22,556 nt of DNA from a virus. The notes beneath the pieces are model-generated. The model was not told the origin of the DNA. It saw only the letters and a program-made list of their open reading frames with translations, and made no database searches. The stretch is from the IMG/VR virus record IMGVR_UViG_3300047552_002039, positions 1-22,556 of that record, one strand, 5' to 3'. Positions within the stretch are counted from its first letter, which is position 1, and every line of letters starts with the position of its first letter. The position numbers and the translations under genes are program-made. Positions 3,435 through 21,161 of this stretch are shown here, one piece after another.

Positions 3435-3469
3435 AAAAGCCCGGGCCTCTTCGCTTTGCCCGGGCTTTT
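3435..3469 (+). terminator. Strong terminator after the HNH gene
   Basis: AAAAGCCCGGGC (3435-3446) pairs perfectly with GCCCGGGCTTTT (3458-3469) over 12 bp with an 11-base loop. The symmetric A and T flanks mean it could also work on the minus strand. With the terminator at 2977 it brackets the HNH gene as a separate cassette. Confidence 0.88.
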
Positions 3470-3506: not shown

Positions 3507-4454
3507 ATGGCTTTTACTGGAATTTGGATACCTGTTGAAATTTGCCTGTGCAATGGATTTGATGCTCAGGAAAAAATCATTGTTGGGCAGGTTATAGGCT
3601 TTAAAGAGGCCAAAAAGCCCTGCTATGTAAGTAACAATTACTTTGCTTCAATACTGGGCGGTCTATCCGCTAAACGAGTAAGCACAATTATAAACGGCCT
3701 AATTGCCAAAGGTGTAATACAAAGCACCTTGAATAAAGAGTCGGGCAATATGCGAGTTTTAGAACTTAACGAGTCTGGGCTGAAGGCTTTTTTGGCTAAG
3801 TACCCTATCCCCGAAAACGGGAATACTATCCCCGAAAACTTCCATACCCTATCCCCGAAAACAGGGATACCCTATCCCCGAAAACAGGGATACCCTATCC
3901 CCGAAAACAGGGATACCCTATCCCCGAAAACTTCCACCAATAATAAAGAAAATAATAAAGTAGATAACATAATTGAAAGTGTATGCAAAAACGAATTTTT
4001 GCAGCCACGCACACACAAGCCACAAACAATTGAAGAGGCTTTTGGGGATTATGAAGCAACCGAGCAACAGCAAGAAAAAAACCTGCCTACCTTAAACGCC
4101 AAAGCCCAAACGGGCGCAAATACACCGAGAGTTGGGCGCGGCGGTGTAAAAAATACACTAAGCCAATTTGTGCCGCCAAACGAGGCCGAGTGCTTTGATT
4201 TTTTCAAGGCCGCTGCGCCGGGCCTACCTGAATACTTTCTTAAAAGCGAAGCAACTAAGTTTTACAACTACTACGAGGCCCGGGGCTGGGCGGGCATAGT
4301 GAATGCCGAGGCCCTTGCCGTAAGTTGGGCAAGGGCGGATAGGTTCAAAAAAGATGCTGAAGCGCACAGGCCCGCTGCCGCCTCGTTTGTCGAGCAAGTA
4401 CGGGAAGATGCCCAACGGCGCGGCCTCAAGATTTTTGGCGCGGGTTCGTTTTAA
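3507..4454 (+). CDS. Phage replication initiator with internal origin (lambda O-like role)
   Basis: This 315-residue protein has three parts. Residues 1-95 form a helix-turn-helix/winged-helix domain of the phage replication-protein type (GIWIPVEI, then CYVSNNYFASILGGLSAKRVSTIINGL in two pieces, a wing-like strand pair and a final helix). Residues 99-143 are encoded by the six iterons, and residues 144-219 form a low-complexity linker. Residues 220-283 form a C-terminal domain with FYNYYEARGW (252-261) and W274, as seen in phage replication proteins that contact a helicase loader. ATG 3507 is the only start that gives the family's N terminus. The helicase loader gene lies downstream at 5241. 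The role is inferred by analogy to lambda O. Confidence 0.82.
   Translation: MAFTGIWIPVEICLCNGFDAQEKIIVGQVIGFKEAKKPCYVSNNYFASILGGLSAKRVSTIINGLIAKGVIQSTLNKESGNMRVLELNESGLKAFLAKYPIPENGNTIPENFHTLSPKTGIPYPRKQGYPIPENRDTLSPKTSTNNKENNKVDNIIESVCKNEFLQPRTHKPQTIEEAFGDYEATEQQQEKNLPTLNAKAQTGANTPRVGRGGVKNTLSQFVPPNEAECFDFFKAAAPGLPEYFLKSEATKFYNYYEARGWAGIVNAEALAVSWARADRFKKDAEAHRPAAASFVEQVREDAQRRGLKIFGAGSF
3806..3931 (+). repeat. Six iterons inside the initiator gene (probable replication origin)
   Basis: The 13-base core TATCCCCGAAAAC occurs six times without mismatch, starting at 3806, 3827, 3850, 3873, 3896 and 3919. The steps are 21, 23, 23, 23 and 23 bases, so all copies face nearly the same side of the helix. 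Copies 3-5 extend to the dyad TATCCC-N8-GGGATA; copies 2 and 6 are followed instead by TTCCA. The array lies in the coding region of a winged-helix initiator and is followed by an AT-rich stretch, as in the lambda origin within gene O. Confidence 0.85.
3939..3980 (+). other. AT-rich candidate DNA unwinding element
   Basis: Bases 3941-3980 contain only six G or C (85% AT by hand count), in sharp contrast to the C-rich iterons next to them. The 10-base sequence AATAATAAAG occurs twice, at 3939-3948 and 3951-3960. It encodes an Asn/Lys linker in the initiator protein. Its place beside the iterons fits an origin melting site. Confidence 0.65.
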
Positions 4455-4480: not shown

Positions 4481-4513
4481 GGGCAGTTGTAAAGTATTAC
4501 TTTACAACTGCCC
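4481..4513. repeat. Perfect 15-bp inverted repeat
   Basis: GGGCAGTTGTAAAGT (4481-4495) and its exact complement (4499-4513) flank a 3-base centre, ATT. No T-run follows on either strand. It lies 27 bases after the replication gene and about 65 bases before the next promoter. It could be an unusual terminator, an operator for a dimeric regulator, or an RNA-stabilising 3' hairpin. Confidence 0.75.
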
Positions 4514-4578
4514 TAGAATGTCCTACAAGCCCGTTTTTGCCCTAGTCGGAAAAAATCTTAAATATTTTTTAGCAAGGT

Positions 4579-4610
4579 ATTGGAAATTTGAATGGCCCGT
4601 TATACCTTTG
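4579..4610 (+). promoter_or_regulatory. Bacteroidota-type promoter (copy B)
   Basis: ATTG at 4579-4582 (one mismatch to TTTG) and TACCTTTG at 4603-4610 are 20 bases apart. Bases 4579-4632 match 127-180 at about 44 of 54 positions by hand count, including the shared TTTGTAGCAC and TTAAAGGAAA downstream of the box. It should drive the small gene at 4646. Confidence 0.75.
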
Positions 4611-4645
4611 TAGCACGTTAAAGGAAAAACAAAACACACAAAATC

Positions 4646-4948: not shown

Positions 4949-5254
4949 ATGAAGATTTATCAGGTGAAATATGGCCGGGTGTTTGAGCGCGAGGGCGAAA
5001 TTTTACAAGGCAATTGGGTGCGCTACAAAACGGCTCAAGGCAAAACAATAACAGAGCCTACGCTCAAAAATGAATTTTTTGCTTCTTTTGAAGAGGCCCG
5101 GGCGCAGGCTATCAAATACCAACAACAGCAAATTTTTATCAACAGATTTCATTTGAGCAGGGCAATCGAGAACCTTAATGCCCTACTTCAAAACGACCTG
5201 CCGGAGCTAGCGATACAAATTGACGAGGAGGAGATTGAAGATGAAAACGCATAG
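4949..5254 (+). CDS. Unknown protein preceding the helicase loader
   Basis: This 101-residue protein starts with beta-like segments (MKIYQVKYGRVFE, NWVRYKT), followed by a helical middle (residues 50-85) and a very acidic C terminus (IDEEEIEDENA). It overlaps the loader gene by 14 bases, so the two are probably translated together. An accessory role in replication is suggested only by this position. No family was recognised. Confidence 0.65.
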   Translation: MKIYQVKYGRVFEREGEILQGNWVRYKTAQGKTITEPTLKNEFFASFEEARAQAIKYQQQQIFINRFHLSRAIENLNALLQNDLPELAIQIDEEEIEDENA

Positions 5255-5996
5255 GCAGCTATTTTGGGATTTAGTGCAACTGCTTAGCAATAACACCTAC
5301 AAAGTTGCGCCTGAAAACACGGCGGCAACTGGGCAGCTAGTAAACTACTTTGCCGCAAAGCCCGGGGAACTGGATTTGACAAAGGGGGTTTTGTTGCTAG
5401 GCCCGCCAGGCACGGGTAAAACGTTCCTTTTGCGGGCTTTTCAAATTCTTTGCCGCGACTCAGATCATAGCTTTGGGATGAAGTCGGCTATTGAAGTTGC
5501 AACCGACTATTCAGAAACGGGCCAAATTTCGCTTTTACGGGCAGGCCGGGCAATGGCCTATGATGATATAGGCTTTGAGGGGCAATCGTCGCACTACGGG
5601 CAAAAAAAGGCCGTTTTCGTGGATATTATCCATGCCCGTTACAGAGCGTTTTGTGAAAGTGGCGTAAAAACGCACTTTACAAGCAACCTGAACCCCGTGC
5701 TGCTCGAGAAGGCATACGGCCCCGCTATATTTTCAAGGCTCACCCATTTATGCAATATTGTGATTTTGGTAGGGCAAGATAATAGGGCTATTGCCCCTGC
5801 CCCTGCCGCTATTTCGCCTGAGCAATACTACACGCTTCCTCGTTTTTTTGAGAGCAAAAGCGCAAAGGAACGGGCTGAAGTATTGCGCTGGTATGAAGAT
5901 TTGAAAAACGCCCCGCAGGTTGTGCATAAGCAGACGGCCCGGGAAAAATTTGAGGAGTTAATCAATTCGCTAACGCAAAACAAAAAAGCACAATGA
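5241..5996 (+). CDS. AAA+ helicase loader, DnaC-like
   Basis: This 251-residue AAA+ ATPase shows Walker A GPPGTGKT (54-61), Walker B MAYDDIG (105-111), a sensor-1 Asn in FTSNLN (146-151) and a likely arginine finger in SRLTHL (165-170). This is the core of DnaC/IstB-type loaders, which place a replicative helicase at the origin. ATG 5241 is preferred over a TTG at 5220 because it has a purine-rich GAGGAGG stretch upstream and gives the usual short N terminus. Next to the O-like initiator it would fill the lambda P role. No phage helicase was seen in the window, so the host DnaB may be recruited. The stop overlaps the next start (ATGA). Confidence 0.88.
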   Translation: MKTHRQLFWDLVQLLSNNTYKVAPENTAATGQLVNYFAAKPGELDLTKGVLLLGPPGTGKTFLLRAFQILCRDSDHSFGMKSAIEVATDYSETGQISLLRAGRAMAYDDIGFEGQSSHYGQKKAVFVDIIHARYRAFCESGVKTHFTSNLNPVLLEKAYGPAIFSRLTHLCNIVILVGQDNRAIAPAPAAISPEQYYTLPRFFESKSAKERAEVLRWYEDLKNAPQVVHKQTAREKFEELINSLTQNKKAQ

Positions 5997-11238: not shown

Positions 11239-12042
11239 ATGCGCAATTACCATTCCTTACTTCACTACGTTTTGACAAACGGCGAGCCTCGCAACGACCG
11301 CACAGGTGTAGGCACATTAGCAATTTTTGATGCCCGTTTGGAATTTGATTTGTCGGCGGGATTTCCCCTGCTCACCACTAAAAAAGTTAGCTTCAAAAAT
11401 GTAATAAGCGAACTATGCTTTTTTGTGAACGGCAAAACAAACGTTGATTATTTGCACAAGTATAATAATCGCATTTGGGATGCTTGGGCAAATGAAACCG
11501 GGGAACTTGGGCCTATTTACGGTGCGCAATGGCGTAACTGGTGGGGGTCAGAATTTCCATGCGTTGACCAATTAAAAAACCTCGTGCGCGACCTGATTAA
11601 ATCACCACAAAGCCGGAGGCATTTGGTTAGTGCATGGAATGTAGGGGAAATTCCGCAAATGGCCCTACCCCCTTGCCACTACGCTTTCCAATTCTATGTT
11701 ACCAATACGGGCAAACTGGATTTGAAGGTAAATATGCGTTCTACAGATTGCTTTTTAGGCTTGCCGTATAACATTGCTTCATACGCTGCGCTAAATCACA
11801 TGATAGCCAAAATTTGCAATTACAGGCCCGGGAGGTTAATCATGAGCCTTGCCGATACGCATATCTACAAAAACCACGTAGAGGCCATAAACACGCTATT
11901 GCAGCGCGACCCAAATCGATATGCTTTGCCACAATTGCGCCTTAACGGGGAATTTGACTTGAGCGAAGAAATACACCCCGAGCAATTTGAAATTGTAGGG
12001 TATGAAAGTTATCCGGCAATTAAAGCAGAGGTAGCAATTTAG
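11239..12042 (+). CDS. thyA: Thymidylate synthase
   Basis: At 267 residues it matches the length of ThyA, which makes dTMP from dUMP with methylene-tetrahydrofolate. RTGVGT (R21), SRRHLVSAWN (R126, R127), the catalytic Cys in LPPCHYAFQF (C146), RSTDCFLGLPYNI (D169, N177) and LADTHIYKNHVEA are all present, so it should be active. Start and end need no adjustment. In phages it raises thymidine supply during replication, or supports base modification. No dCMP deaminase or hydroxymethylase is seen here, so simple dTMP supply is the better reading. Confidence 0.97.
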   Translation: MRNYHSLLHYVLTNGEPRNDRTGVGTLAIFDARLEFDLSAGFPLLTTKKVSFKNVISELCFFVNGKTNVDYLHKYNNRIWDAWANETGELGPIYGAQWRNWWGSEFPCVDQLKNLVRDLIKSPQSRRHLVSAWNVGEIPQMALPPCHYAFQFYVTNTGKLDLKVNMRSTDCFLGLPYNIASYAALNHMIAKICNYRPGRLIMSLADTHIYKNHVEAINTLLQRDPNRYALPQLRLNGEFDLSEEIHPEQFEIVGYESYPAIKAEVAI

Positions 12043-19268: not shown

Positions 19269-19533
19269 TGAGCGGATTACGGCGTATGAAGCTACAAACG
19301 CAGCAGACGGCCTCGGCGGATTTTCGCAGGTTCACAATCCTAGCTTTACACTTTGGGCTAATTGCGTTTTTGCAGAGCCAAAAGGGATTGATTTTGCACA
19401 GTATAAAGAAACTTTGCAACTCAAAATAGTAGTTAGGAATAATGAAATATTTCGCGGCAAAAAATACAGAATCGCGGGCCGCAAAAGTGATAGCAAATAC
19501 ATATATTTAACTTGTTATGAAGCTATCGTATAA
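19246..19533 (+). CDS. Head-tail adaptor (joining) protein
   Basis: This 95-residue beta-rich protein fits the phage head-tail joining family (SPP1 gp16-like): an N-terminal RITAYEATNAADGLGGFSQ, then SFTLWANCVFAEP, LKIVVRNNE and KYRIAGRKSD strands. ATG 19246 is chosen because it gives the family's N terminus; the frame continues upstream but inside the connector gene. It would cap the connector and provide a site for tail attachment. Confidence 0.8.
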   Translation: MAKEYSFNERITAYEATNAADGLGGFSQVHNPSFTLWANCVFAEPKGIDFAQYKETLQLKIVVRNNEIFRGKKYRIAGRKSDSKYIYLTCYEAIV

Positions 19534-20699: not shown

Positions 20700-21161
20700 A
20701 TGGCAGCAACAGACGGCGTACACAAAGGCGACCTTTATAGGATTGTTTTGAGCGATGGCACTAGCGAAATGGTAGGATGTATTACTACCCTATCTTGGAA
20801 CGCTACAATGGATAGCACAGAGGTTCCGGCTTGCCGAGGCGCGGCTGCTGAAACGGGCGGATGGAAAAAGTTTATCCCCGGGGACAAAAGTATGACTATC
20901 TCGGCGGAGGGGCAGGTGCTTATGGCTGAAGATTGGACTCCCCATCGCTTTTTTGGCGCAATGGATAACGAAACGGAGCTAGCGTTTATACTTGAGCCTG
21001 TAGGCCCTGCGCCTACTTACACGCCAATTGTAGGCGGCCAACGCTTGCAAGGCGATTGCTGGCTCACTTCGCTCGACGTGCAATATCCAAACAACGAGGT
21101 CGTAACGTATAGTTTGGAACTTACCGTAAACGGCAAGCCGACTAGCTCGATCATTGTTTAG
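20700..21161 (+). CDS. Major tail (tube) protein
   Basis: This 153-residue beta-rich protein has the size and order expected for a phage tail tube protein of the TP901-1-like type, with GDLYRIVLSDGTSEMVGCIT and TEVPACRGAAAE near the start, SMTISAEGQVLM in the middle and VTYSLELTVNGKP at the end. It would stack in hexameric rings around the tape measure protein. A strong terminator follows, and the tail chaperone genes come next, the standard order. Confidence 0.85.
   Translation: MAATDGVHKGDLYRIVLSDGTSEMVGCITTLSWNATMDSTEVPACRGAAAETGGWKKFIPGDKSMTISAEGQVLMAEDWTPHRFFGAMDNETELAFILEPVGPAPTYTPIVGGQRLQGDCWLTSLDVQYPNNEVVTYSLELTVNGKPTSSIIV

Follow-up and report, generated by a model that had tools for sequence, protein, structure and literature searches.

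A probable lambda-style intragenic replication origin in the O-like initiator gene of a tailed phage with a probable Bacteroidota host

Introduction

Replication origins that lie inside the initiator gene are already known from the bacteriophages lambda and SPP1 (PMC5043065, PMC6316719). In lambda ori/O, as in P22 gp18, HK97 and other lambdoid O genes, the iteron array follows the part of the gene that encodes the DNA-binding domain, its units are inverted repeats of about 18-20 bp of the ATCCC..AAAAC..GGGAT type, set 20-24 nucleotides apart, and an AT-rich region lies downstream. The lambda iterons, annotated as ATCCCTCAAAACGAGGGA and variants, are inverted repeats that bind dimers of O, in contrast to most plasmid iterons (PMC5043065, PMC7466680). 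In SPP1, oriL is located in gene 38, where direct repeats and an AT-rich unwinding element occupy the initiator gene and a separate loader, gp39, is encoded (PMC6316719). Here we analyze a stretch of 22,556 nucleotides, hereafter the window, which corresponds to positions 1 to 22,556 of the IMG/VR virus record IMGVR_UViG_3300047552_002039 and carries six iterons within the gene of an O-like replication initiator. The locus shares with the lambdoid O genes the placement of the array, the type and spacing of its units and the AT-rich region, resembles SPP1 oriL in its architecture, and very probably represents a lambda-style replication origin inside the gene of the phage's own O-like initiator.

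Results

The initiator gene and the elements found within it are the following:

3507-4454, plus strand: O-like replication initiator gene, 315 amino acids, ATG at 3507, PHROG 678
3507-3800, plus strand: N-terminal winged-helix domain, residues 1-98, from the AlphaFold2 model and covariation
3669-3707, plus strand: recognition helix with K56, R57 and T60, residues 55-67, from the AlphaFold2 model and covariation
3801-3938, plus strand: iteron array of six 14-nucleotide cores; the inverted repeat TATCCC..GGGATA is complete in copies 3-5 and nearly so in copy 1
3939-3978, plus strand: putative unwinding element, 87.5% AT, with 12-nucleotide direct repeats AATAATAAAG(A/T)A at 3939 and 3951, a repeat kept in relatives
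4182-4418, plus strand: helical C-terminal part of the initiator, residues 226-304, from the AlphaFold2 model

The core CTATCCCCGAAAAC is present in six exact copies on the plus strand, at 3805, 3826, 3849, 3872, 3895 and 3918, which together span 3805-3931 at spacings of 21, 23, 23, 23 and 23 nucleotides; a first-pass annotation of this DNA had described six exact copies at 21-23-base spacing in the initiator gene, and the identity extends over 14 bases, not just the 13 reported there. When up to three mismatches are allowed, the core matches the window 12 times against 1.9 expected, a number that none of 100 shuffles reached. The array scores 72, whereas the best of 200 shuffles of the gene scored 22 and the best of 500 synonymous recodings, which preserve the protein, 46; thus neither base composition nor the encoded protein explains it. 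Because the period is 23 nucleotides, the frame shifts with each copy (codon phases 1, 1, 0, 2, 1, 0, so that all three are used), and all three reading frames of the repeat unit are open. The arms of the unit, TATCCCCGAAAACAGGGATA, form an inverted repeat centred on AAAA, and in copies 1, 3, 4 and 5 they pair at 7 of 8 positions. The 32-kb sister record of this phage, IMGVR_UViG_3300042988_002085, contains this cluster and no second one.

The repeat had been taken to differ from that of lambda, and this was mistaken: the array is composed of lambda-type iterons. A matrix built from four lambda iterons found its three best matches in the sister record at the array, and only 4 of 5000 column-permuted matrices scored the array as well. 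Searching for the core across phage genomes, as had been proposed, was done by scanning the whole of IMG/VR for two ATCCCCGAAAAC cores 7-15 nucleotides apart. This returned 37 contigs, one of them the sister record; in 34 of the other 36 the pair lies in an open reading frame with similarity to lambda O (E 5e-13 or better), and in the remaining two, whose reading frame is cut at the edge of the fetched piece, the same array was recognized from the DNA. Among GTDB genomes the paired core was found in nine contigs. Five hold enterobacterial O-type arrays, four of them in lambda-O reading frames and one (Leclercia) in a reading frame that is broken, and the other four hold repeats of unrelated kinds; in chromosomes, therefore, the paired core alone is no proof of an O gene. 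The initiator of the window is itself very distant from the lambda-type initiators (39 aligned columns, probability 69%).

A family-model search places the initiator in PHROG 678, O-like replication initiation (E 8e-11, residues 25-163), and an AlphaFold2 model built from 41 sequences displays a winged helix, predicted with confidence as far as residue 98, so that the winged-helix initiator of the first-pass annotation is well founded. Residues 111-149 have low confidence in this model and cover most of the array-encoded residues 99-142, which are predicted to be largely disordered. A structure search of the PDB gave weak winged-helix matches (best E 5e-3), including the N-terminal domain of DnaD, the closest folds being regulators of the MarR type, and in BFVD phage initiator-like proteins were matched. 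The sequence search of the PDB yielded nothing useful, for the C-terminal third no phage homologue was found at E 0.01, and as single queries in IMG/VR the initiator and the helicase loader described below matched the sister contig only.

Relatives of the winged-helix domain were gathered from IMG/VR, phage records and Bacteroidota genomes (242 sequences, in 74 clusters below 75% identity), and arrays were called in them without a prior motif, at a score of at least 28, which 0.8% of shuffles reach. An intragenic array was found in 55 of the 74, just 3' of the winged helix and starting about 250-300 nucleotides after the start of the domain, with a spacing mode of 22-23 and, in 53 of the 55, with copies spread over two or three reading frames. 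In genes of the lambda family, taken from several hosts, the array occupies the same place (of 12 examined, 10 had an array or two or more copies, and 2 had neither). The initiators of the Pseudomonas, Lysinibacillus and Flavonifractor phages Cruim01, Skulduggery, vB_LspM-01 and Cormatin also have a homologous winged helix and arrays in this position, but are only 25-39% identical over the matched part and differ in their arms, CTTCGGAAAAC, TATTCAGGAAAC and TGACAAAAATGTC.

Among the relatives, what is constant is a pattern of arm, AAAA and inverted arm, while the arm itself varies together with the recognition helix: TTCGG is found with SR..E, TTAAC with TR..L, TTTAG with GR..Q, GGCG with DR and NR, GAC with T.SR, AAG with S.SK, and CTCG and CCCG with KR. 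K56, R57 and T60 rank highest of 79 variable columns by mutual information with arm positions -1 to -4. In a partial Mantel test controlling for similarity of the rest of the domain, the correlation was 0.31 overall (n=47; 0 of 2000 permutations), again 0.31 when identity was kept below 65% (n=35; 0 of 2000) and 0.28 below 60% (n=24; 1 of 2000). Triples drawn at random from the other variable columns reached the observed value in none of 500 trials. One relative, L119, has a domain 61-68% identical to those of phages with SRVSE helices and CTTCGGAAAAC arrays, yet itself carries VKRVSN and CTCTCGAAAAC, indicating that within a family the repeat can change together with the helix; the initiator of the window, 35% identical to L119, combines an AKRVST helix with CCCCGAAAAC. 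These sequence comparisons suggest that the three residues set which repeat is used.

Directly behind the array, AT content is 79.6% over the 49 nucleotides 3932-3980 and 87.5% over the inner 40, 3939-3978; an AT-rich stretch with direct repeats had been correctly noticed before, although the 85% AT then given applies to the inner 40 bases only and the repeats measure 12 nucleotides instead of 10. An AT-rich region follows the array in 53 of the 55 relatives, and in 40 of them the motif RRTAATAMA occurs within 70 nucleotides 3' of it, against 6% in shuffles, its copies being mostly 12 or 15 nucleotides apart. All 82 occurrences are read in one frame, RRT-AAT-AMA; where the product is (S/N)NT, AAT is the asparagine codon in all 76 cases and ACA the threonine codon in 72 of 76. 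In GC-rich genes the repeat has AAT in 9 of 9 and ACA in 8 of 9 cases, compared with 33 of 80 and 6 of 65 elsewhere. This near-absolute codon choice indicates a role at the DNA level, and the fixed frame may have been inherited from the downstream coding part. The repeat, which by composition and conservation is a putative unwinding element, resembles the DnaA-trios and the DnaD recognition element of Bacillus oriC, by analogy only (PMC10201434).

The remaining features flank the initiator gene:

3435-3469, no strand assigned: 12-bp GC-rich inverted repeat with an 11-nucleotide loop, terminator-like, directly upstream of the initiator gene
5220-5996, plus strand: DnaC-like AAA+ helicase loader, start at 5220 or ATG 5241, PHROG 50 (E 2e-14)

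A perfect 16-bp inverted repeat with one nucleotide between its arms (GGGCAGTTGTAAAGTA / TACTTTACAACTGCCC) and no T run lies at 4481-4513, directly 3' of the initiator gene. The loader proved to be DnaC-like and downstream, as annotated in the first pass, but the position likened to that of lambda P holds only loosely, given that about 0.77 kb with small open reading frames separate it from the initiator; a P-type loader directly downstream, as in the lambda O-P module, is not found. Inside the loader gene, on the opposite strand, is a lone iteron-like site (5613-5626, minus strand) with two mismatches to the 14-base core.

At both ends the window overlaps the sister record, and the two close into a single circle of about 32.17 kb, since the window lacks 31 bp (19449-19450) and supplies a 40-bp junction (21009-21048). 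The phage is tailed, of about 32 kb and circularly mapping. It also encodes a thymidylate synthase (11239-12042, Pfam E 1e-99). Relatives of the loader were found in 23 of 390 genomes of a Bacteroidota sample and in none of 393 of a Pseudomonadota sample, the phyla of the samples having been set through named records (L141, Bacteroidales; L140, Escherichia). On this sequence evidence the host is probably a member of the Bacteroidota, in agreement with the host proposed earlier. The terminase was ambiguous as a host marker: 47 of 295 in Pseudomonadota had matches and only 7 of 296 in Bacteroidota, yet the single best scores were in Bacteroidota. The loader separated the phyla better. A promoter-like site of the Bacteroidota type (TAnnTTTG) occurs twice in nearly identical form, at about 151 and 4603 (blocks about 120-170 and 4570-4620; TTG...TAnnTTTGTAGCAC), the latter directly downstream of the initiator gene. 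Lambda-type origins need to be transcribed across. Near loader relatives of Bacteroidota prophages a single clear intragenic array was seen, in locus L356 of the Bacteroidota sample (749-802, on the reverse complement of the stored locus), where a helix-turn-helix-like open reading frame close to a loader relative contains a 21-nucleotide array, AAAAAATGACTTACAAAACGA, of a different repeat read in a single frame.

Discussion

The position of the array after the winged helix, and the AT-rich repeat behind it, bear out the lambda-origin architecture first proposed for this locus. The iterons number six in the window and four in lambda, where they are spaced by 20, 24 and 23 nucleotides. The window further departs from lambda in its initiator, which lies outside Pfam Phage_rep_O, in a DnaC-like, non-adjoining loader in place of P, and in its probable Bacteroidota host. 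Iteron plasmid replicons likewise have phased initiator sites beside an AT-rich region, but the family searches gave no match to a plasmid Rep family here.

We infer that dimers of the initiator would bind the inverted-repeat iterons through the recognition helix, with K56, R57 and T60 facing the CCCCG arm, and that the bound initiators would gather the array into a nucleoprotein complex able to melt the adjoining AT-rich repeats. The DnaC-like loader might then deliver the host replicative helicase, with replication starting at the array. The array would be accommodated in a stretch encoding a disordered linker, where coding in three frames may be tolerated.

Several observations weigh against this interpretation. 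The detrended GC skew of the circularized genome, a check suggested together with the original proposal, has neither an extreme nor a switch at the array; the initiator fails Pfam PF04492 (Phage_rep_O), a model to which lambda O and P22 gp18 give strong matches, only HTH_36 having turned up, below the cut-off; and in two of the six iterons, copies 2 and 6, the right arm has been lost and the left alone is kept. As for the covariation, the partial Mantel signal is lost below 55% (n=18) and 50% identity (n=14). Moreover, K56, R57 and T60 were picked on the same data on which they were tested, and the anchoring was changed after a weaker first run, in which crude anchoring gave significance down to 60% identity only; the improved rule, anchoring on the first A of the A-run, was adopted after misregistered rows had been seen, and strengthened the signal. 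For these reasons of column choice and later anchoring, the covariation is support within families and not proof.

An array of inverted repeats could instead serve mainly as an operator at which the initiator or a repressor controls the initiator gene, replication beginning elsewhere. Inverted-repeat sites to which winged-helix proteins bind are typical of regulators, and the closest PDB folds are of the MarR type; nevertheless, we consider this improbable, as the array lies about 300 nucleotides inside the gene, away from the promoter, is directly followed by a conserved AT-rich repeat, lacks a second counterpart in the sister record, and has the layout of the proven origins of lambda and SPP1 (PMC5043065, PMC6316719). 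Still harder to sustain, and in our judgment most improbable, is that the repeat was expanded by slippage or is a linker repeat at the protein level, devoid of function as DNA. Tandem 23-nucleotide units could come from slippage, and the encoded stretch is disordered in the model, but the copies fall in three frames, the synonymous recodings do not reach their score, the core is common to lambda-O-type genes, and the arrays present in 55 of 74 relatives vary in step with the recognition helix.

A further question concerns descent, namely whether the lambda-like iteron came, along with its DNA, from a lambdoid phage, or has stayed unchanged since a common ancestor, rather than having arisen by convergence of the helix. 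A near-identical 18-nucleotide unit in enterobacterial O genes, in spite of very distant initiators, speaks for shared descent or acquisition. We regard this as rather unlikely, though deserving of more weight than the preceding alternatives, given that L119, with its KR-type helix and CTCTCGAAAAC, differs from its CTTCGGAAAAC relatives in helix and repeat together, and that no wider DNA similarity to lambdoid phages was seen.

Returning to the intragenic origin, the novel elements are the occurrence of a lambda-type iteron in a phage with a probable Bacteroidota host, the covariation of residues with arms, and the conserved AT-rich repeat. Among the open-access papers that we searched, a collection with few of the subscription journals, we found no report of helix-iteron covariation or of the conserved downstream repeat. 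We put at about even the chance that O-like initiators share one origin grammar, in which residues 56, 57 and 60 set the arm around a fixed A-tract, making iterons predictable from the protein and retargetable in evolution, and a codon-constrained repeat of the AAT-AAT-ACA type, 12 or 15 nucleotides apart behind the array, is a common unwinding element. If the residue code is true, replacing K56, R57 and T60 by S, R and E, as in Pseudomonas phage initiators, would redirect binding to TTCGGAAAAC arms in place of CCCCGAAAAC.

The lambda-style intragenic origin, with nearly the lambda repeat itself, would thus extend to a probable Bacteroidota phage whose initiator falls outside the named O family. 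Its relatives make the long-standing question of how iterons are chosen by O-type initiators testable through a three-residue swap, and they offer a route to the origins of uncultured phages from the initiator gene alone.
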